Below are positions 11,170 to 21,635 of a stretch of 64,000 nt of DNA, in pieces (position 1 is the stretch's first letter; the number at the start of each line of letters is the position of its first letter). The position numbers and the translations under genes were made by a program. This DNA comes from Raoultibacter phocaeensis. Lineage in GTDB: Bacteria; Actinomycetota; Coriobacteriia; Coriobacteriales; Eggerthellaceae. The stretch lies in the NCBI RefSeq assembly GCF_901411515.1, contig NZ_CABDUX010000002.1:558001-622000 (forward strand). Direction: 5' to 3'. Below the pieces are notes generated by a model. That model was not told the origin of the DNA, ran no database searches, and saw only the letters and a program-made list of their open reading frames with translations.

Positions 11170-11769
11170 TGAAGTGTTGCGTTTTTCAGGCCCTCGGGAA
11201 GGGATGCAAGACCCGGAAGCGGCACCCGTGGGAAGCTCGAATCGGCGCGAGCCGATGATCAGGCGTTATAGCCGAAGCGAAAGCAGCCGCCGCCGAAGAG
11301 GGATCCCGGAGCGCAACACTTGGCGAGAAACTGTGTATTTGGAAGGCACCTCGCTGTCGAACCGGGATGGACACGATCTGCGGAGCGCCTCACGGCGATC
11401 TGATGCTCGAGTGCTCCGAGTGGGCGTATGCCAATCCTGATTGACAGCGGACGAGGCCTGCTTGGGGCTCGGCGATGCCGCTGCGACCTTCCGAAGTTCC
11501 CGAAATGTGAAGAAACTGTGGATCCCGTCAATTCCGAGCGTTTTGCTGTATAAACCGCTGATTTAAGCTGGCGGTGCGGCGTTTCGTTCGGAGAAAACTC
11601 AACTTCAAATTTAACATCCCAGGTTGCATGCGGCGGAAGCACCCGATAGCGGCTGCGGCAAACCCCTTGAAATGCGTGCTATGCTCACTAAAATGGTCAT
11701 CATTAACGCGCAGAGCGTCTAGCTGGCGACCAAAAAATAAAGCGTAAACGTTGCAGGGGGATGTTCTCT

Positions 11770-12351
11770 ATGAAACCGAATACGATGGGAAAAGCTCTAA
11801 CGGGAAGGGCCGCTCGGTCCGTTCTGTCGGTTGCGCTCGCCTTCGCCCTCGTGACGACATCCGTCCCGCTGGCGATTGCTGATGAGGGGGCATCCGGCGC
11901 GAATGACGCTGCGCAAGCGGAGGCAAGCGAAGCCCAGGGTGCGAAGAAGCCAGAAACCACCCTGCCCGCAGACTGCATTTCCGAAGACGTTGCCCTGCCT
12001 GAGGCCGAAGCTCCTGCCGATCGCGTGTTCAAAGACGTCGAGATCGCGCCGCCTGAGGCGCCCGAAGGCCCCGGCGAATCCGGGGCGAAAGCGCCTGCTG
12101 TGCCGAAGGCAGCGGCTGACGTGCCGCTTGCGGAGAAGAACCCGAAGCCCGCAGTGGGCACGCTTGTGTTCGACGGCTTGGAATACGAGCTCAACCAGGA
12201 CGGCGAGACCGTGACGCTCGTCGGTTTCCACGGAGATGCGCCGAGGGGCGATCTGGTGATTCCCTCAAGAATTAAATCGGGCGAAGACGAATACTCTGTA
12301 ACCCGCGTAGAGTTTCGGGGGGGGGCGTATATTTCCCTGCGCCTGAGGTAA
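11770..12351 (+). CDS. N-terminal fragment of a BspA-like surface protein, frameshifted at a poly-G tract
   Basis: Starts at ATG 11770 (GGGGG nine bases upstream) with a Sec signal peptide (RAARSVLSVALAFALVTTSVPLAIADE), then a proline/alanine/glutamate-rich segment, then the start of a leucine-rich-repeat domain (TLVFDGLEYELNQDGETVTLVGF...VIPSRIKSGEDEYSVTRVEF). After nine G residues at 12317-12325 the frame runs into a stop at 12351. With one G fewer the frame would continue as RGGVYFPAPEVTSVSIPATV, a normal LRR_5-type repeat, into the 1.4-kilocodon frame downstream. The two pieces are therefore one gene of about 1640 codons, switched off in this sequence or misassembled at the G run. Confidence 0.8.
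   Translation: MKPNTMGKALTGRAARSVLSVALAFALVTTSVPLAIADEGASGANDAAQAEASEAQGAKKPETTLPADCISEDVALPEAEAPADRVFKDVEIAPPEAPEGPGESGAKAPAVPKAAADVPLAEKNPKPAVGTLVFDGLEYELNQDGETVTLVGFHGDAPRGDLVIPSRIKSGEDEYSVTRVEFRGGAYISLRLR
12317..12325 (+). repeat. Poly-G tract (G9) at the frameshift of the LRR surface gene
   Basis: Nine consecutive G residues, preceded by TTTC and followed by CGTAT. Mononucleotide tracts of this length vary by slipped-strand mispairing; eight G (or eleven) would restore one continuous reading frame. Position within the first fifth of a secreted surface protein is classical for phase variation. Confidence 0.85.
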
Positions 12352-15300
12352 CGTCCGTTTCGATACCCGCCACCGTCTGCGAAATCGATACGGAATCGCT
12401 TTCGGCTCTCGACGGCTTGCAATCCGTGCACGTCGATTCGAAGAGCGAGGGCTACGCATCCTACGACGGGATGATTTTCGGAAAGGACCTCTCCGAGCTC
12501 TTGTTCGTACCTGCGGGCAAAGCGGGCACGGCGAATCTTCCCAACGAGGCAGCCGCCGTATCCGCTGCGGTTTTCTCCCGGGCCGGCGCGCTTTCGGCGA
12601 TAGCGGTCGGCGAAGGCAACGCCGCGTTCTCGTCGGTTGACGGCGTTTTGTATACCAAGGATAAGAGGCTGCTCGTCTGCGGTCCGGCCGCTGGCGGCGA
12701 TGCGGTGGCGTTGCCCGTCGAGACGCGCGAGATCGGCGAAAGCGCTTTCGCGCAGGCGGATCCTGCGTCCATCGTCGCTCCCGGCTTCGTGGAAACCATC
12801 GATTCGTCGGCGTTCTCGGACAAGACGAAGGCCAACGCGTGCGTCGCCCTTGCCGCAGGCGATTCGTACGATGAGCGCAAGGCCGTCTGGGAGGCCGCCG
12901 GGTTTTCGCGATTCGCCGAGCCTGCGCGGCCGGGCGAGACCGTTACCCCCGACGGGGAAGAAGAACCAGCGGCTTCCGGCTTCGCTTTCACGCTTCTCGA
13001 TGACTACACGTTGGCCGTGTCGTGGCAGGGCAGCGAAGCCCCCGATGCGGATATCGAGATACCCTCGTCGGCTCGGGTTGGCGGCGTGTCCTACCGCGTG
13101 ACCGCCGTTGCGCCCGACGGGTTCGCGGGACTGCCGATCGCCTCGGTGATAATCCCGTCATCCGTGTCGACGATCGAAAGCGGCGCGTTCTCGGCGTGCG
13201 GGAGCCTGGCTTCGGTCACGTTGCCTGAGGGTTTGGCGAAAATCGGTGAGCGCGCTTTCGAGGGCACTGCGGTAACGAACCTCGTTTTGCCGACATCGCT
13301 CGTCTCGGTGGGCGAGCGCGCCTTCGCCGACTGCGCTTCGCTTGCGCGCGTGGTCGCGCTTTCCGCCGTACTCTCCGTAGCCGCGAGCGCGCTCGCAGGA
13401 TGCTCGGGGGTCTCGGTCTATTGCCCGTACGAGGAATCGGGCGCGTATCCCTGGAACCCCGGCATCGTTGCGGGGGGCAACCATGTGATGCCCTACGGCC
13501 TTTCCCTGGCAGGCGAGCCGCTTGTTGTGGAAACGGACGAAGCCGCTGACCTGTTCGAAGGCGGCATGTGCGAAGCGCCCGAGGGTGCCGAGCTCGCATA
13601 CGCCTACGCCGCGTCGTTCATGTCGGTAGAAGGCGGAACCGTGACCGGCAAGAGGGCCGGTGCCGCCGACGTTACCGCCGTGCTTACGCTCGACGGGATT
13701 GAGCTCGCCCGCGCATCGCGCACGGTCGAGGTGACCGGTGCGCCCGCACGGGAAGATGCCCCCGAGGTGTCGGTCCCGCACCTGAGTCTCGACGTCGCTC
13801 TGGCCCCGGCATCCGCCGACGAGCCCGCCCCCGCGGCCGCCGACATAGCGAGCGGCGAATGGGGACGCTGCACGTGGGTCATCGATTCCGCGGGGAAGCT
13901 GACGATCTCACCGACCCCTGGGCAGTCGGGCGAGCTCGCGTCGTTCGCATTCAATGGCTCTGCGCCATGGTTTCCCCACGTGACCGAGGTAACTTCCGTT
14001 TCGATCATCCCCGGCGTGCGCGCGGGTTCGAGCCTGAAGGGTGCGTTCGTCAATTGCGCATCCCTGACCTCCGTCGACCTCTCGGGCCTCGACGCCTCGC
14101 GGGCGACGGACCTGTCCAGCATGTTCCAGGGCTGCTCCAAGCTGGCCTCCCTCGACCTGACGCCCCTCGCCGCCTCGAGGGCGGAGAACCTGTCCGGCAT
14201 GTTCTCCGGCTGCTTATCCCTGACCACCCTAGACCTGACGCCCTTCGCCGCCTCGCGGCCGACGAACCTGTCCTGCATGTTTCAGAGCTGCTCCAAGCTG
14301 GCCTCCTTCGAGCTGCCCGACGGCTTCGCCTCTGCCGCCACGTACGTAGATAACATGTTCTACGGCTGCAACTCCCTCTCGGACATCCCCTCGAACCTTT
14401 CGTTCGGAAGCGCCGCTTCGATCCCGGCAAACTGCTTCAAGGTGACCTCGGGAGCTCCGCTGCGGACCGTGTACAAGGGGTCGGACGCGAAGATCCACGC
14501 CTACGACTGGGCGGCGGCCGGCCGCGCGTTCGAGGGGGCCGACGGGTTCTCGGGCGGCTGCTCGTGGGCCATCGACGACGCGGGAGTCCTGCGCATCTGG
14601 CCCACCGACGGCGCATCGGGCGAGCTCACGTCGTTCGCTGATTACAACGTCGTGCCCTGGTATTCCCGCAAGGCCGAGGTGACCTCCGCCTCCGTCGCTC
14701 CCGGCGTGCGCGCGGGTTCGAGCCTGAAGGGCATGTTCTACCAATGCTCATCCCTCACCTCGATTGACCTCTCGGGCCTCGACACATCGCAAGCGACTAA
14801 CCTGTCCCAGATGTTCTACCAATGCTCATCCCTGGCCTCCCTCGACCTGACGCCCCTCGCCGCCTCGCGGGCGACTAACCTGTCCGGGATGTTCCGCGAC
14901 TGCTACTCCCTGGCCTCCCTCGACCTGACGCCCCTCTCCGCCTCGCGGGCGACTAACCTGTCCCAGATGTTTCAAAGCTGCTACTCCCTGGCCTCCCTCG
15001 ACCTGACGCCCCTCTCCGCCTCGCGGGCGACTAACCTGTCCCAGGTGTTCTACCAATGCTCATCACTGGTCTCCCTCGACCTGCCCGACGGCTTCGCCTC
15101 GGCCGCCACGAACCTGCTTTACGCGTTCTCCGACTGCAACTCCCTCTCGGTCATCCCCTCGAACCTCTCGTTCGGAAGCGCCGCCTCGATCCCGGTCGGC
15201 TGTTTCAGGGTGACCGCGGGGGAGCCGCTGCGGACCGTGTACAAGGGGTCCGACGCGAAGATCCACGCCTACGACTGGGCGGCGGCCGGCCGCACGTTCG

Positions 15301-16697
15301 AGGGGGCCGACGGGTTCTCGGGCGGCTGCTCGTGGGCCATCGACGACGCGGGCGCCCTGCGCGTCTGGCCGACCGACGGCGTGTCGGGCGAGCTCGCGTC
15401 GTTCGCCTCCGTGACGTCCGTGCCCTGGCACCTCCGCAGGGCCGAGGTGACCTCCGCCTCGGTCCTTCCCGGCGTGCGCGCGGGTGCTGGCCTGGTCGGC
15501 ATGTTCCTTAACTGCTCAGAACTGGCCTACCTCGACCTCTCGGGCCTCGACGCCTCGCAGGCTACGGACCTGTCTACCATGTTCCGCAACTGCAGATCCC
15601 TTACCTCCCTCGACCTGACGCCCCTCGCCGCCTCTCGGGCTGGGAACTTGTCCAACATGTTCAACGGCTGCTCCGAGCTGGCCTCCCTCGACCTGACGCC
15701 CCTTGGCAACTCTCAGGCGACGAACCTGGCCAGCATGTTCCAGGGCTGCTCCAAGCTGGCCTCACTCGACCTGACGCCCCTCGACGCCTCGCAGGCGTTG
15801 TACCTGACCGAGATGTTCCTACGCTGCTCCAAACTGACCTCCCTGAAGCTCCCCGACGGCTTCGCCTCGGCCGCCACGTCCGTGAACGCCATGTTCTCAG
15901 GCTGCAACTCCCTCAAAACCATCCCCCCGAACCTCTCGTTCGAGAACCTCGCCTCGATCCCGCAGGGCTGCTTCTCCTACGCGGGCTCAACCCCGCCGCT
16001 TTCGACGCGCTACGAGGGCGACGACCCCAAGCTCAAATCCTACAACTGGGCGGCGGACAAACGCACGCTCGACGTCGAGCACGTCGTGTCCTTCGATGCG
16101 GGCGGGGGATCGCCCGAGCCCGCCGGCCAGTCCGTCTGGACGGGCGATCTCGCGACCGAGCCCGAGGCTCCGAAGAGGGCGGGCTACACGTTCGCGGGCT
16201 GGTGTTCGGACGCGGCGCTTGCCTCGCCCTACGACTTCTCGTCTCCGGTAACGTCCGATCTCACCCTCTACGCCAAGTGGACGCTCGTGATATCGGGCAC
16301 GGTGCCGCTCAACGCGACCTTCTCGGTGGAATCGTCTGGTTCCGTTGCCGAGGTTCCCTGCGAGATTACCTCGACGTCGGCGGGCCCGCTCAAAGTGGTG
16401 TCGGTGGTGTGCGCCGAGGAGGCGGGGGCGGCGGAGGTGTTCCCCGATGCGGCCGAGCGCGCGCAGATCGCCGTAACGCTCAAACCCGGGGCGGCGAGCG
16501 CGGTGCAGCTTGCGCTTGGCGGCACCTTGCAGGAAGGCGGGCTTTCCGGATTCGCCATCGAAGCGAACGGGAAGCTGCCGCTTGCGCTGGGACTCTCCCT
16601 TCCGAAGGGCATCCGCATCGAGCCCACCGGCACCGACGCCGATCCCGATGCGACGAAGGCCTTCGCGAAGCTCGTCTACACCGTCGCACCTGCCTAA
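12324..16697 (+). CDS. Main part of the BspA/DUF285 leucine-rich-repeat surface protein (out of frame with its start)
   Basis: Reading resumes after the poly-G tract; the first usable start codon of its own would be a poor TTG at 12417, so it is best seen as the downstream part of the gene beginning at 11770. Order of parts: LRR_5 repeats (LPIASVIIPSSVSTIESGAF and similar), a bacterial Ig-like segment, three blocks of DUF285/BspA repeats (units like LSSMFQGCSKLASLDLTPLA), each introduced by a C-(T/S)-W-(V/A)-I-D-(S/D)-A-G module, an InlB/Flg_new repeat (RAGYTFAGWCSD...LTLYAKW), and a C-terminal beta domain ending KLVYTVAPA. No sortase motif is seen at the end. Likely a cell-surface or matrix adhesin. 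Confidence 0.82.
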   Translation, partial: GVYFPAPEVTSVSIPATVCEIDTESLSALDGLQSVHVDSKSEGYASYDGMIFGKDLSELLFVPAGKAGTANLPNEAAAVSAAVFSRAGALSAIAVGEGNAAFSSVDGVLYTKDKRLLVCGPAAGGDAVALPVETREIGESAFAQADPASIVAPGFVETIDSSAFSDKTKANACVALAAGDSYDERKAVWEAAGFSRFAEPARPGETVTPDGEEEPAASGFAFTLLDDYTLAVSWQGSEAPDADIEIPSSARVGGVSYRVTAVAPDGFAGLPIASVIIPSSVSTIESGAFSACGSLASVTLPEGLAKIGERAFEGTAVTNLVLPTSLVSVGERAFADCASLARVVALSAVLSVAASALAGCSGVSVYCPYEESGAYPWNPGIVAGGNHVMPYGLSLAGEPLVVETDEAADLFEGGMCEAPEGAELAYAYAASFMSVEGGTVTGKRAGAADVTAVLTLDGIELARASRTVEVTGAPAREDAPEVSVPHLSLDVALAPASADEPAPAAADIASGEWGRCTWVIDSAGKLTISPTPGQSGELASFAFNGSAPWFPHVTEVTSVSIIPGVRAGSSLKGAFVNCASLTSVDLSGLDASRATDLSSMFQGCSKLASLDLTPLAASRAENLSGMFSGCLSLTTLDLTPFAASRPTNLSCMFQSCSKLASFELPDGFASAATYVDNMFYGCNSLSDIPSNLSFGSAASIPANCFKVTSGAPLRTVYKGSDAKIHAYDWAAAGRAFEGADGFSGGCSWAIDDAGVLRIWPTDGASGELTSFADYNVVPWYSRKAEVTSASVAPGVRAGSSLKGMFYQCSSLTSIDLSGLDTSQATNLSQMFYQCSSLASLDLTPLAASRATNLSGMFRDCYSLASLDLTPLSASRATNLSQMFQSCYSLASLDLTPLSASRATNLSQVFYQCSSLVSLDLPDGFASAATNLLYAFSDCNSLSVIPSNLSFGSAASIPVGCFRVTAGEPLRTVYKGSDAKIHAYDWAAAGRTFEGADGFSGGCSWAIDDAGALRVWPTDGVSGELASFASVTSVPWHLRRAEVTSASVLPGVRAGAGLVGMFLNCSELAYLDLSGLDASQATDLSTMFRNCRSLTSLDLTPLAASRAGNLSNMFNGCSELASLDLTPLGNSQATNLASMFQGCSKLASLDLTPLDASQALYLTEMFLRCSKLTSLKLPDGFASAATSVNAMFSGCNSLKTIPPNLSFENLASIPQGCFSYAGSTPPLSTRYEGDDPKLKSYNWAADKRTLDVEHVVSFDAGGGSPEPAGQSVWTGDLATEPEAPKRAGYTFAGWCSDAALASPYDFSSPVTSDLTLYAKWTLVISGTVPLNATFSVESSGSVAEVPCEITSTSAGPLKVVSVVCAEEAGAAEVFPDAAERAQIAVTLKPGAASAVQLALGGTLQEGGLSGFAIEANGKLPLALGLSLPKGIRIEPTGTDADPDATKAFAKLVYTVAPA
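13854..16080 (+). repeat. Three DUF285 repeat blocks with near-identical DNA
   Basis: Blocks begin near 13854, 14545 and 15319. Blocks 2 and 3 are preceded by nearly identical DNA: the stretch from 14463 to about 14583 recurs from 15231 with only a few mismatches, including exact runs of about 42 and 58 bp. The offset is 768 bp, i.e. 256 codons, so recombination between the copies would add or remove a whole block in frame. Inside each block LRR units recur every 23 to 24 codons. Confidence 0.8.
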
Positions 16698-16752: not shown

Positions 16753-17361
16753 ATGAAACTTGAGGAACTGCCGACCATCGACAACGCAGACCCGGTAAAC
16801 GGCCGGGCGAAACCAGACCCCCGGGAGCGGGGAGGGGTTGCACCGGGAACAGGAAGCCCGGCCCCGAAAAAGCGGCGTGTGCTCGTAGCCATTGCAGCAG
16901 TGCTGGTGCTGCTCGCGGCCGCCGGCGCAATCTGGCTTCTCGCAGGCGGCGCGCCCGACGATTTCTTCGACGCCGACGCCCAGTCGGGGCAGGCTCCCTA
17001 CAAGACGCAGGAGGAGATCCAGGCCGAGCTCGACCGCGTGGTGGAGGAGGGCATGTTCAACATCTCCATCGCGAGCCTGATCGAGTTCGCCGACGGGACG
17101 TCCCCCGGCACCGCCTACATCGAGAACGTGCCGGGCAACCGCTACCTCATGCAGGTGACGATCTCGCTCGATGACACGGGCGAGGCGGTGTACGAATCGA
17201 AGGCCATCAAACCCGGCAGCTACATCGAGAACGTCGCCCTCGCAACCGACCTCGAACCCAGCGACTACCCGGCCACGGCCACCTTCGCCGCGCTCGACCC
17301 CGACTCCCGCGAGGAGATCGGCCGCGCTGCGGCGAAGGTGACCCTGAGCGTGAGGGGGTGA
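16753..17361 (+). CDS. Membrane-anchored extracellular protein, paralogue A
   Basis: A 202-residue protein: about 40 polar proline-rich residues, one transmembrane helix (RVLVAIAAVLVLLAAAGAIWLLAGG), then an outside domain beginning KTQEEIQAELDRVVEEGMFNIS and continuing IENVPGNRYLMQVTISLDDTG, YES..IKPGSYIENVAL and a final beta strand AAKVTLSVRG. The same domain occurs in the second membrane protein of this operon (18252-18839). I recognise it only as an unnamed family found beside surface proteins of Gram-positive bacteria. AAGGAAC precedes the ATG. Cytoplasmic N-terminus and outside C-terminus are inferred. It may help assemble or anchor the neighbouring secreted proteins. Confidence 0.7.
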   Translation: MKLEELPTIDNADPVNGRAKPDPRERGGVAPGTGSPAPKKRRVLVAIAAVLVLLAAAGAIWLLAGGAPDDFFDADAQSGQAPYKTQEEIQAELDRVVEEGMFNISIASLIEFADGTSPGTAYIENVPGNRYLMQVTISLDDTGEAVYESKAIKPGSYIENVALATDLEPSDYPATATFAALDPDSREEIGRAAAKVTLSVRG

Positions 17362-17464: not shown

Positions 17465-18064
17465 ATGAAGAAGACCAAGACAACCCTGACGGCGCTCGCG
17501 CTTACTGCGGCGCTTGCGATGGCGGCGGCACCGGCCGCGCTCGCAGCCGACGCATCCGTAAACGAAACGGGCTCCATCGCATCGGACGGCACCGCATCCA
17601 CCACGCTCAACGTGTACGCGACCGCATCGCAGATCCAGGCGACCATCCCAATCGACATCACCATCGTCACCCCTGCTGCGGGCGGAACCATCACCGCGCC
17701 CTCGGCCAACGCCTACAAGATCGTCAACAACAACACGACGACCGACCTGTACGTGAAGTCGGTCCAGGGCGTGAACGCCAACGGCTGGAATGCCGTTGAC
17801 ACCCTCACGTCGCCTGCCTCCGGCATGGCCGCCACTACCGGCGAGCTCAAGATGACGGTCAAGGCGGGCGCTTCGAACCCCCTTGCCATCGCCGCGGCGG
17901 CAACCGCAGTGCCCGAGCAGGCCAAAGAGTACTTCAAGGTTCCGGCGAAGGGCGAACTCGGCCTGACGCTTGCGGGCGAGAGCTCGGTTAAGACGGAGCT
18001 GACGGCCGACAGCACCTATCCCGCCGTCAAGATCGCCTACACCGTGGCCGTACCCACCGCGTAA
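17465..18064 (+). CDS. Small secreted beta-rich surface protein
   Basis: A 199-residue protein with a clear Sec signal (MKKTKTTLTALALTAALAMA...ALAADA). The mature part is alanine/threonine-rich and predicted beta: TASTTLNVYATASQIQATIP, IDITIVTPAAGG, YKIVNNNTTTDLYVKSVQG, and ends KIAYTVAVPTA. The ending and the pattern of N-x-(T/S) followed by hydrophobic K-S-V-(Q/V) resemble the C-terminal domain of the large LRR protein upstream (ending KLVYTVAPA). It has an excellent Shine-Dalgarno (AAGGAGGA). It is flanked by the two paralogous membrane proteins. No enzyme motif, LPXTG or cysteine is present, so a structural surface role is most likely. Confidence 0.7.
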   Translation: MKKTKTTLTALALTAALAMAAAPAALAADASVNETGSIASDGTASTTLNVYATASQIQATIPIDITIVTPAAGGTITAPSANAYKIVNNNTTTDLYVKSVQGVNANGWNAVDTLTSPASGMAATTGELKMTVKAGASNPLAIAAAATAVPEQAKEYFKVPAKGELGLTLAGESSVKTELTADSTYPAVKIAYTVAVPTA

Positions 18065-18251
18065 ACGCGGCAACCGAAAGCGGCAGCGTGCAATCAGCCG
18101 AACCCGGGCAGCCTCCTGCGCGAGGCTGCCCGCCCTGCGTGCCCTTCGCCATCCCGCGCACGGCACGCACCGAGCGCCCTGCGCGCGACGCCCAGCAACC
18201 GCCCGCGCGCCCGACCCGCGCATGCGGCAAGCCCATCCGAGAAAGAAGACC

Positions 18252-18839
18252 ATGCAAGCACCCGAAGAACGCCACGCAGAAGAAAGCCTTCCGACGCCGA
18301 TGCCTGATCCCGGGGCAGCGTCGCATGCCCGCGCGAGCGCCAAAAAGCCCGCGAGCTTCTACCTTGCCATCGCGCTTTCCGCACTCGTCTCGATCGCCCT
18401 TCTCGGCTTTCTGTGGTTTTCCACCCGCGACGAGGGCCCCGCGCGCGATCCCAACGCGGCGCTCGGGCAGCTCGAGGGGAAGACCCAGGAAGAGATCCAG
18501 GCCGAGCTCGACCGCACGGTGGCCGAGGGCATGCTCTCCATCTCCATCGCCTCGTTCGTGGAGTTTTCCGACGGCTCATCGGAAGGCGAGGTCAAAATCG
18601 AGAACGCTCCGTCGAACCACTACCTGATGAAGGTTCGCATAACGCGCGACGACACGGGCGAGACCGTCTACGAATCGGGGATCATCGAACCCAACCGCCA
18701 CATACAGAAGGCGAAGCTCGCCGTCGACCTCGATGCGGGCGAGTATCCGTGCACGGCCGTGTTCGACGCGTACGACAGCGAGACGGAGGAGCCCGTGGGC
18801 CAGGCGGCCGCGAAGCTCACGATAGCGGTGAAGGCGTAA
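18252..18839 (+). CDS. Membrane-anchored extracellular protein, paralogue B
   Basis: A 195-residue paralogue of the protein encoded at 16753-17361. It has a polar N-terminus, one transmembrane helix (FYLAIALSALVSIALLGFLWF) and the same outside domain: KTQEEIQAELDRTVAEGMLSIS, IENAPSNHYLMKVRITRDDTGE, YESGIIEPN, GQAAAKLTIAVKA. The start ATG at 18252 follows AGAAAGAAG; an in-frame ATG at 18222 would add ten residues. The pair sits on both sides of the small secreted protein, which suggests that each serves a different partner (secreted protein or the downstream adhesin). Function unknown. Confidence 0.7.
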   Translation: MQAPEERHAEESLPTPMPDPGAASHARASAKKPASFYLAIALSALVSIALLGFLWFSTRDEGPARDPNAALGQLEGKTQEEIQAELDRTVAEGMLSISIASFVEFSDGSSEGEVKIENAPSNHYLMKVRITRDDTGETVYESGIIEPNRHIQKAKLAVDLDAGEYPCTAVFDAYDSETEEPVGQAAAKLTIAVKA

Positions 18840-18869
18840 ACCATGGGCACGAGAGAGGTAATCGCAGCT

Positions 18870-21635
18870 ATGAGAAGGCATACGAACACATGGTTGGCGG
18901 CGCTTCTGTGCGCATGCCTGCTCATATCCTCGGTTCCCGCAACCGCGCTGGGTGCGGCGCGGCCCTCGGTGGGGCCGCACGGGCGCGTAGGCGAAAACGG
19001 CGTGGCCTACACGAGCGTCAACGTGCTTGCCGTCAAAGAGCTCTCGGTCCGGGCGAGCGAGAGCTTCGCGGCCACGGTAACCCAGATCCAGCAAGCACCC
19101 GACTTGTATATGCTCAAAGCGGCCGTGTCGGGCCACTCGGGCGAGCTTTCCTATGCGTGGACCCGCACGGTGGACGGCGAACCCGACGACGCGTTTTCCT
19201 GGGACGGCGCCGAAGTGCGGCTCGCCGATTGGATCGGCGATGGAGCGGGGGGCATCGAGGACGGACGCGAGTACGTCTACACGGTCACGGCGACCGATTC
19301 GTCGGGGGCGAGCGCGAGCGCGGCGGTCAGCGTGGCGACCCTCGACGGCTACGGGCGGGCGACCCGCACCGAGAACGGCGTCACCGTCGAGGGCGTGCTT
19401 GCCGACGAGGCGGTGTTCGCCGCAGGCGAGCTGGACGGCTCGGCGCCCGCCTACGACCACCTGCTCGCCTCGGCCGAGGGCAAACCGGTCGCAGGCGTTT
19501 GGTGCACGGAGCTCTCGGGCACGCGCGGCAGCCGGCCCGCCCATGTGGGCCCCTTGGACGTCACGCTGCCTGCAGCCGGGCTCGGCGAAGGCTCCGAGGT
19601 CGTCGTCATCGGGCTGGATGCCCGGGGTGCCGTCGCTAAGTATCCGGGCACGGTGGAAGGCGGCTGCGTGACCGTATCGGTTCCCGCGCTCGGCGCGTTC
19701 GCCGTCGCCGCCTGCGGTTCGGGCGGTTCGAGCTACACGATCGAGGCGAGCGCGGGCGAGGGCGGCCAGATCACCCCGTGTGAGACGGCATCGTACGCCG
19801 AAGGCGCGGCTCCCCGCTACGTCGTCCTGCCCGATTCGGGGTACGTGGTCGATCAGGTGCTCGTAGACGGTGCGCCCGCTGCGCTTTCCGGAAACGCGTA
19901 CGTATTCGCACCGCTCGATGCAAACCATGCCATCCGCGCGACCTTCGCAGCCGTCGAACCCGATGCATCGACCGGGCACCGCCTTTCCGCATCCGTGAGC
20001 GGCGGGCACGGACGCGTATCCGTGGCGGGCGGCGAGGCGGCTGCCACAGTAGAGGCCGAGCTTTCGCACGGCGCGTCCGCGCTGGTCGAGTTTCTGCCCG
20101 ACGACGGCTACGCGGTGGACGCCCTCACCGTGAACGGGGTGCCCCATGCGGTCATCGGCGATTCGTTCCTCGTCTCGTGCGCGACCGAAGACGTCGCGGT
20201 GCAGGTGACGTTCAAGCCGGGTATCGCGCCGCCGCTACCCGTGCACGCCGTCGAGGCGTCGGTCACAGGCGCAGGCGGAAGCGTCTCGCCCGAGCGCGCC
20301 CTGGTTCCCCACGGTCGGTCGGAATCCTTCACCTTCGTGCCCGACGAGGGCTACGAGCTCGAGGCGGTCGCCCTCAACGGCGACGACGTGACGCATCGGG
20401 TGCAGCAGGCCGACGGGGCAACGCTCTTGATCGAGAACGTCGTGAAAAGCCACGCGATCGAAGCTTCGTTCAAGGAGAAGGACGATCCCGGCCCCGCTCC
20501 CGACGAGCCGTTCGTCAACGTAGACGTGAAGGTGGAGGTGAGCTCGGAAGGCGGCGAGGGCGGAAGCGTGTCGCCGTCGGGCGCCCTGGTGATGGCGCAC
20601 GGATCGTCCCAGACCTTCTATATCTACCCCGAGGAGGGCTATGACCTCGACCGGGTGACCGTGAACGGCGAGCTTGTCGAAGCCCGACCCCTCGCGCGGG
20701 CGACGCTGTTTTCGGCGCGCAGCACGGCGGGCGCGTACGGCGGATACGTGGTGTCGGTCGAATCCGTGACGACGGATACGGTCATCGAGGTTTCCTTCAG
20801 GAAGCTCGGCGAGGGCGAACCTCAGCCTCCTGCCGTCGCGGTCTGGGAGGTGGCTTCGTCGGCTTCGGGGGGAGGCACCGTCTCTCCTGCGGGGGTTTCG
20901 CGCGTGCCCCAGGGCGAATCGCTTTTCTTGACGCTCAAACCCGACGAGGGGCACCGCTTGGCATCCCTTATCGTGAACGGAACGGATGCAACCGCCGAGG
21001 TGTCCGGAAACGTATTCGCCCTTGCCGATGTGCGGGCCGATACGGCCGTGCACGCGGTGTTCGAGCCCGAGGGCGGTGATCCTGGACCCGGCCCAGGGCC
21101 TGGCCCCGACCCCGGTCCAGGGCCCGATCCAGGGCCTGATCCAGGGCCTGACCCCGACCCCGAAGGCGAGTTCTTCGCCATCGAGGTGGCGGCGGGCCCG
21201 CACGGCACCGTGTCCGACCTTGGCGGCGCCCCGTCGGCAACCATGCAGGTGTCAAAGGGTGCGGACAAGGCGTTCTTCTTCCTGCCCGAGGCGGGCTATG
21301 CGGTCGGCGAGGTGAAGGTGGACGGGCAGCCGGTGGTCGCCGCGCGCAGCTACACGTTCTTGAACGTGCAGGCCGACCATACGCTCGAAGTCACGTTTAA
21401 GGCTCAGGCTGCGCCGGTTCCCGTACATCCCGGCCAGGCTTTCGGGCGGTTCGCCCAGACGGGCGATGCGCCGTTCGCCTTCGCTGCGGCGGGCCTTGCG
21501 GCCCTTGCGGGCGTGGTTGCGCTTATCGGATGGCTCCGTTCGGCTCCGCTTCGTAGGCGTTTTAGCATGAGCCCGGTCTGTGGGGGCAGCAGAGCCGAGA
21601 GGACGGATAAAATCGACGGAAGGGGTAGCCGATGA
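18870..21635 (+). CDS. Large cell-wall adhesin with InlB-like repeats and degenerate sortase signal
   Basis: About 921 residues. N-terminal signal peptide (NTWLAALLCACLLISSVPATALGAA), a PKD/Ig-like part (LSYAWTRTVDGEPDD...YVYTVTATDSSG), then at least five copies of a roughly 75-residue beta repeat with the pattern G-G-x-V/I-x-P ... P-D-x-G-Y-x-V/L-x-x-V-x-V-(D/N)-G ... I-x-A-(T/S)-F, like bacterial InlB B-type repeats, and a (DPGPGP)n linker. The C-terminus has FAQTGD, a hydrophobic helix and RRR, resembling an LPXTG-type anchor with a weak consensus. ATG 18870 follows GAGAGGT; ATG 18843 is an alternative. It overlaps the next gene by four bases. Confidence 0.78.
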   Translation: MRRHTNTWLAALLCACLLISSVPATALGAARPSVGPHGRVGENGVAYTSVNVLAVKELSVRASESFAATVTQIQQAPDLYMLKAAVSGHSGELSYAWTRTVDGEPDDAFSWDGAEVRLADWIGDGAGGIEDGREYVYTVTATDSSGASASAAVSVATLDGYGRATRTENGVTVEGVLADEAVFAAGELDGSAPAYDHLLASAEGKPVAGVWCTELSGTRGSRPAHVGPLDVTLPAAGLGEGSEVVVIGLDARGAVAKYPGTVEGGCVTVSVPALGAFAVAACGSGGSSYTIEASAGEGGQITPCETASYAEGAAPRYVVLPDSGYVVDQVLVDGAPAALSGNAYVFAPLDANHAIRATFAAVEPDASTGHRLSASVSGGHGRVSVAGGEAAATVEAELSHGASALVEFLPDDGYAVDALTVNGVPHAVIGDSFLVSCATEDVAVQVTFKPGIAPPLPVHAVEASVTGAGGSVSPERALVPHGRSESFTFVPDEGYELEAVALNGDDVTHRVQQADGATLLIENVVKSHAIEASFKEKDDPGPAPDEPFVNVDVKVEVSSEGGEGGSVSPSGALVMAHGSSQTFYIYPEEGYDLDRVTVNGELVEARPLARATLFSARSTAGAYGGYVVSVESVTTDTVIEVSFRKLGEGEPQPPAVAVWEVASSASGGGTVSPAGVSRVPQGESLFLTLKPDEGHRLASLIVNGTDATAEVSGNVFALADVRADTAVHAVFEPEGGDPGPGPGPGPDPGPGPDPGPDPGPDPDPEGEFFAIEVAAGPHGTVSDLGGAPSATMQVSKGADKAFFFLPEAGYAVGEVKVDGQPVVAARSYTFLNVQADHTLEVTFKAQAAPVPVHPGQAFGRFAQTGDAPFAFAAAGLAALAGVVALIGWLRSAPLRRRFSMSPVCGGSRAERTDKIDGRGSR

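Follow-up and report, generated by a model that had tools for sequence, protein, structure and literature searches.

The system closest to the locus analyzed here is that of the sortase-dependent pili of Bifidobacterium breve UCC2003 (PMC9187656). As in the present case, a gut commensal of the same phylum carries a 5' G run that splits a surface-protein gene into two ORFs; replication slippage joins these ORFs in B. breve, and G-tracts located in spacers are also mentioned in that study. Further systems share some of these features. Candidatus Mycoplasma girerdii (PMC5476646) possesses multi-copy BspA-like LRR surface proteins subject to frameshifts through changes in repeat length, the wild type often being predicted OFF, but it is a mollicute, and the repeats concerned are dinucleotides, (CA)n among them, instead of G runs. 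In Gardnerella (PMC11287997), an actinomycete, many variable homopolymer tracts lie at surface-protein genes, upstream of or within the ORFs; there, however, other protein families are concerned, and the mechanism was inferred from sequencing, with one tract verified by the Sanger method. Finally, the capsule clusters of Eggerthella lenta (PMC13174815, a preprint) undergo random and reversible surface change within the family concerned here, Eggerthellaceae, through megabase DNA inversions instead of homopolymer slippage.

The present locus lies in the window, by which we mean the whole 64,000-nt stretch of DNA analyzed. It differs from the B. breve system, where pilus operons rather than an LRR gene are concerned and where tract lengths and switching were measured. 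As listed in Table 1, a run of exactly nine G, correctly placed at the switch point in the preliminary description, is found 556 nt 3' of the ATG at 11761. The frame opened by this ATG passes through the tract and ends at the TAA, giving a product of 196 aa, and the body follows in another frame. Since both ORFs align with the intact paralog C1:877573, the left one with its N-terminus (41% over 214 columns) and the body further on (59% over 477 columns), they represent halves of one gene. Codons begin at 1 mod 3 in the left ORF and at 0 mod 3 in the body, so that joining requires a run length of n = 1 mod 3 (7 or 10). The initial proposal that one base fewer would join the halves is incorrect, as the frame of an eight-G version runs into the TGA 18 nt beyond the tract.

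Table 1. Features of the split LRR gene (window positions) and G tracts of its genome (contig positions)
Feature	Coordinates	Strand	Remarks
5' part	11761..12351	+	ATG, hydrophobic signal-peptide-like N-terminus, acidic/Ala-rich linker, start of LRR domain
G9 homopolymer	12317..12325	+	proposed slippage site; Gly-Gly-Gly in first-LRR loop of in-frame homologs
Wrong-frame stops	12344..12351	+	TGA 12344-12346 and TAA 12349-12351; 18 and 23 nt past the tract
Body in second frame	12327..16697	+	1,456 codons plus stop
Best BspA-type LRR stretch (LRR_5, PF13306)	13116..13421	+	one of four stretches
Best DUF285/PARCEL repeat stretch (PF03382)	14721..15065	+	TIGR02167 8e-39
Listeria-Bacteroides repeat domain (Flg_new, PF09479)	16083..16277	+	Pfam match
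Window-type tract	C2:570317		out of frame (window gene)
Window-type tract	C1:849781		out of frame
Window-type tract	C1:871741		out of frame
Window-type tract	C1:889705		out of frame
Window-type tract	C1:877565		in frame (intact paralog C1:877573)
G9, RCC1/SpaA/Cna_B protein			out of frame; weak LPXTG-anchor match
G9, 535-codon ORF			out of frame; signal-like start
G9, giant DUF11 protein			in frame
G9, LicD			in frame
G9, family-2 glycosyltransferase			in frame
G9, 1,432-codon protein			in frame
G9, solute-binding protein gene			present

By inspection, the 5' ORF carries MKPNTMGKALTGRAARSVLSVALAFALVTTSVPLAIADEG, in which basic residues are followed by a hydrophobic stretch, as in a signal peptide. 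Taken by itself, this ORF gave no match to an LRR family, its terminal LRR-like strand being seen by alignment only; the earlier description of a split between two frames is upheld, but its placing of a first LRR in the left part is not confirmed. Using Pfam profile search, the body was matched to LRR_5 (1.2e-52; 177.5 bits, cut-off 27.7), DUF285 (1.5e-42; 144.6 bits, cut-off 25) and Flg_new (1.4e-17), and it scored 130.8 bits against TIGR02167 (cut-off 30), which assigns it to the BspA-type LRR/PARCEL proteins. With its BspA-type LRR, PARCEL and Flg_new repeats, the product is presumably a surface protein and may function in host contact. No Pfam match to the Gram_pos_anchor (LPXTG) motif was obtained in the body, which ends in ...KLVYTVAPA, and by this C-terminal motif the protein falls outside the LPXTG sortase-anchored class.

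The genome to which the window belongs (G000, 3.86 Mb in two contigs, C1 and C2) contains 24 runs of exactly nine G and one G12, with zero G10 and zero G11. In 402 kb of this genome, a sample picked around G9 tracts with little effect expected on the counts of shorter runs, we counted 441 G5, 73 G6 and 4 G7, from which 0.1-1 G9 per genome would be extrapolated, compared to the 24 observed. A G9 lies inside the coding sequence of every one of the five window-type LRR paralogs, compared to 0.18 tracts expected by chance (P~9e-7); three of these runs occupy the homologous site and two lie elsewhere in the gene. The G9 of the window gene is, moreover, a homopolymer of the length (at least about 8 bases) and location (5' coding part, beyond chance) typical of a contingency locus.

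Additional runs were noted outside the LRR family. The G12, the sole run longer than nine in the genome, lies in frame in a 509-codon ORF that resembles a lysA-type decarboxylase by eye (C1:1586979). A G9 at C1:219304 is located four bases 5' of the ATG of a GAF-GGDEF protein, where it is possibly a translational rather than a frame switch, and another at C1:1311469 lies between the two boxes of a promoter-like TTGACA-18-CATTAT. In a same-genus genome (G001:C1:2540000-2558000, minus strand), two G9 runs (local 15213 and 10105) fill the spacers (15) between a perfect TTGACA and TATCAT or TATCCT, as promoter-type tracts do, 88 and 246 nt upstream of the ATGs of 1,361- and 1,930-codon ORFs. A close ortholog of the window gene was not found in that genome.

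Given that G10 and G11 are missing from G000, the assembly may have shortened long runs to nine, which renders the OFF state of the isolate uncertain. The tract could then be real but longer in the cell (e.g. 10), with the gene actually in frame, a reading that we regard as a genuine possibility of somewhat less than even weight. Of the six genes that are clearly split, five would be joined by one extra G, but C2:1050499 requires a change in the opposite direction, and C1:877573 and several other genes are already in frame at G9. In relatives rich in such runs, the G10 count is 0.2-0.75 times the G9 count, ratios at which the P of zero G10 among 24 is 0.015 to 1.5e-6, and an annotated G11 has been reported to be mostly G12 in cells (PMC9187656); yet the G12 of the same assembly was retained in frame within its 509-codon ORF. 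A codon-usage scan of 407 kb for start-less frame switches also speaks against widespread miscalling, as it returned two only, the window tract and a C6 coinciding with a stop (a left/right codon test at homopolymers was overly strict and uninformative). Such an artefact would concern the present state only and is compatible with a contingency locus; it cannot place tracts at homologous sites in other genomes. The preliminary description had considered assembly error capable of refuting the switch; such an error can affect the length call of nine, yet it leaves untouched the tract itself, which recurs at the homologous position in genomes sequenced independently.

Named relatives in which the gene occurs belong to the Eggerthellaceae, within the Coriobacteriia, the class guessed in the preliminary description; no relatives were found among viral contigs. 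Homologs in Candidatus Gordonibacter avicola have tracts of G10 to G13 and the homolog of Adlercreutzia murintestinalis a G10; the four paralogs of one family member (G017) have a G8 in frame, a G9 out of frame, a G10 in frame and a G11 out of frame. Across these three genomes, the homolog tracts comprise 8-13 G, mostly share one codon position with the window tract and occur in mixed frames. At the site shared with the window gene (site B, in the first LRR), where EYSVTRVEF is followed by VYFPAPEVTSVSIPATV in the window and TYTVTAVKTL by FTDSCVESLSLPETI in the Ca. G. avicola locus L127, same-site homologs range from G8 to G12. A second site in Ca. G. avicola (site A), directly after the signal peptide (..SENLRGGGLSEP..), ranges from G10 to G13, so that tract length differs between paralogs as well as between species. 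Homopolymers can promote slippage of RNA polymerase or of the ribosome, and the G9 gene might by this route give some full-length protein, at a low level compatible with the data. A fixed device of this kind would, however, hold its length, whereas the homologs span 8 to 13 and several are plainly in frame, which makes programmed or transcriptional slippage a very unlikely basis for the split. Runs of other lengths at the same spot in sister genes and relatives make it very probable that the tract acts as a random on/off switch.

In two Ca. G. avicola loci, tracts at site A and site B were observed in series, both out of frame in L121 and both in frame in L127. Where two tracts stand in series, both would have to be in frame, which would amount to a two-lock switch. 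In addition, three Ca. G. avicola contigs break off no more than about 90 bases away from the tract; length heterogeneity could be the cause, but repeats or chemistry could also account for it.

A structure of 430 residues was predicted from an 8-sequence alignment for the protein of L127, a naturally in-frame homolog (mean pLDDT 75.6). In this model, the block holding the site B Gly run (by hand count, residues 143-145) has a pLDDT of 59 and its neighbours have 92 and 91, which places the run in a low-confidence loop between two well-predicted strands; the site A run lies inside the first 87 residues, which are predicted to be disordered. Tract-less genes have an ordinary LRR motif at the corresponding position (..FAKCSELTSVSLP..), indicating that the tract occupies a replaceable loop, and as Enteroscipio rubneri possesses the gene without a tract, the tract is dispensable for the protein.

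The length of the tract determines whether the body of the window gene is read in frame, and translation would end early where it is not. The two wrong-frame stops lie 18 and 23 nt past the tract, compared to a gene-internal median of 221 nt (P=0.005). Similarly, in seven tract genes of G000 both wrong frames are stopped within 22-63 nt past the tract, whereas the medians inside these genes are 86-280 nt (combined P 7e-6), and for 15 of 16 loci in other genomes the stop distance ranks among the lowest 20% of the within-gene null. As the loci are largely paralogs, these P values are too small, i.e. optimistic; the direction is consistent across loci. A single out-of-frame copy would look the same had the window gene simply died by a fixed frameshift. 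The unusual nearness of the wrong-frame stops does not fit a dead pseudogene, nor does a body of 1,456 codons with no other stop, nor a design common to four paralogs and many homologs, several of them in frame, and we consider this explanation very unlikely.

A previous study found NucS to be nearly universal in the class Actinobacteria and absent from Coriobacteriia, all analyzed members of which were without NucS and MutS-MutL (PMC5290159). In agreement with that study, the MutS_I and MutL models, which gave matches in control genomes, found no counterpart in any of the 31 genomes screened from the family and order, and NucS, to which controls likewise responded, had no match in the window's genome and weak matches in four others of the 31. 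Together with the published survey, these results make high slippage rates at the tracts plausible.

Taken together, our results favor the view that the G9 tract is a simple-sequence contingency locus of the known, slipped-strand kind, with a probability of about 0.86. Tracts in all five paralogs, homolog tracts in mixed frames, near wrong-frame stops and the absence of known mismatch repair all support the phase-variable character suggested at the outset, and are left unexplained by the alternatives. Judged by its sequence in one strain, with paralogs and species compared, the window gene has the hallmarks of such a locus. In the proposed mechanism, replication slippage would add or remove bases in the G run, probably altering the tract within a population. 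Run lengths of 1 mod 3 (7, 10, 13) would join the signal peptide to the LRR body and yield the surface protein (ON), and at other lengths translation would end at most 9 codons past the tract, leaving a stub of roughly 190 residues (OFF). Switching may thereby vary adhesion or exposure to the immune system or phages.

On a wider scale, the evidence is about evenly poised for a model of a broad G-tract phasome in Eggerthellaceae, and perhaps in much of Coriobacteriia, which are without MutS-MutL and NucS. Surface, LPXTG, glycosyltransferase, LicD and signalling genes would bear tracts, some inside the coding sequence and others in promoter spacers; in one LRR family the tract would keep its codon position across genera, with wrong-frame stops favored just behind it, and Ca. 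G. avicola would possess two-lock genes. If true, clonal gut populations would be mixtures of many surface states, with a bearing on adhesion, on recognition by the immune system and on sensitivity to phages, and strain-level genome comparisons would misread switches as gene loss. Coriobacteriia would also offer a natural test of G-tract switching without known mismatch repair. Phase variation in Eggerthella has already been reported, by inversion (PMC13174815), and the type of switch is known; of added interest is the multi-gene, cross-genus conservation of tracts in a class without known mismatch repair. No description of G-tract switching in Coriobacteriia was found in the literature searched, which comprised open-access papers and a minority of preprints.

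Downstream of the LRR gene, the window encodes two membrane-anchored-looking proteins that are 48% identical (16753-17361 and 18222-18839), with a small secreted-looking protein between them (17465-18064). None of these three proteins had a Pfam match, and two were scanned against NCBIfam with no match. A comparison of the C-terminal domain with the small secreted protein at 17465 reached E = 0.036 only, and relatedness is not claimed. The following gene (18843-21635) encodes a protein of 930 aa in which a divergent InlB B-repeat (PF18998) was recognized; its C-terminal QTGD and hydrophobic tail resemble, by eye, a sortase signal.
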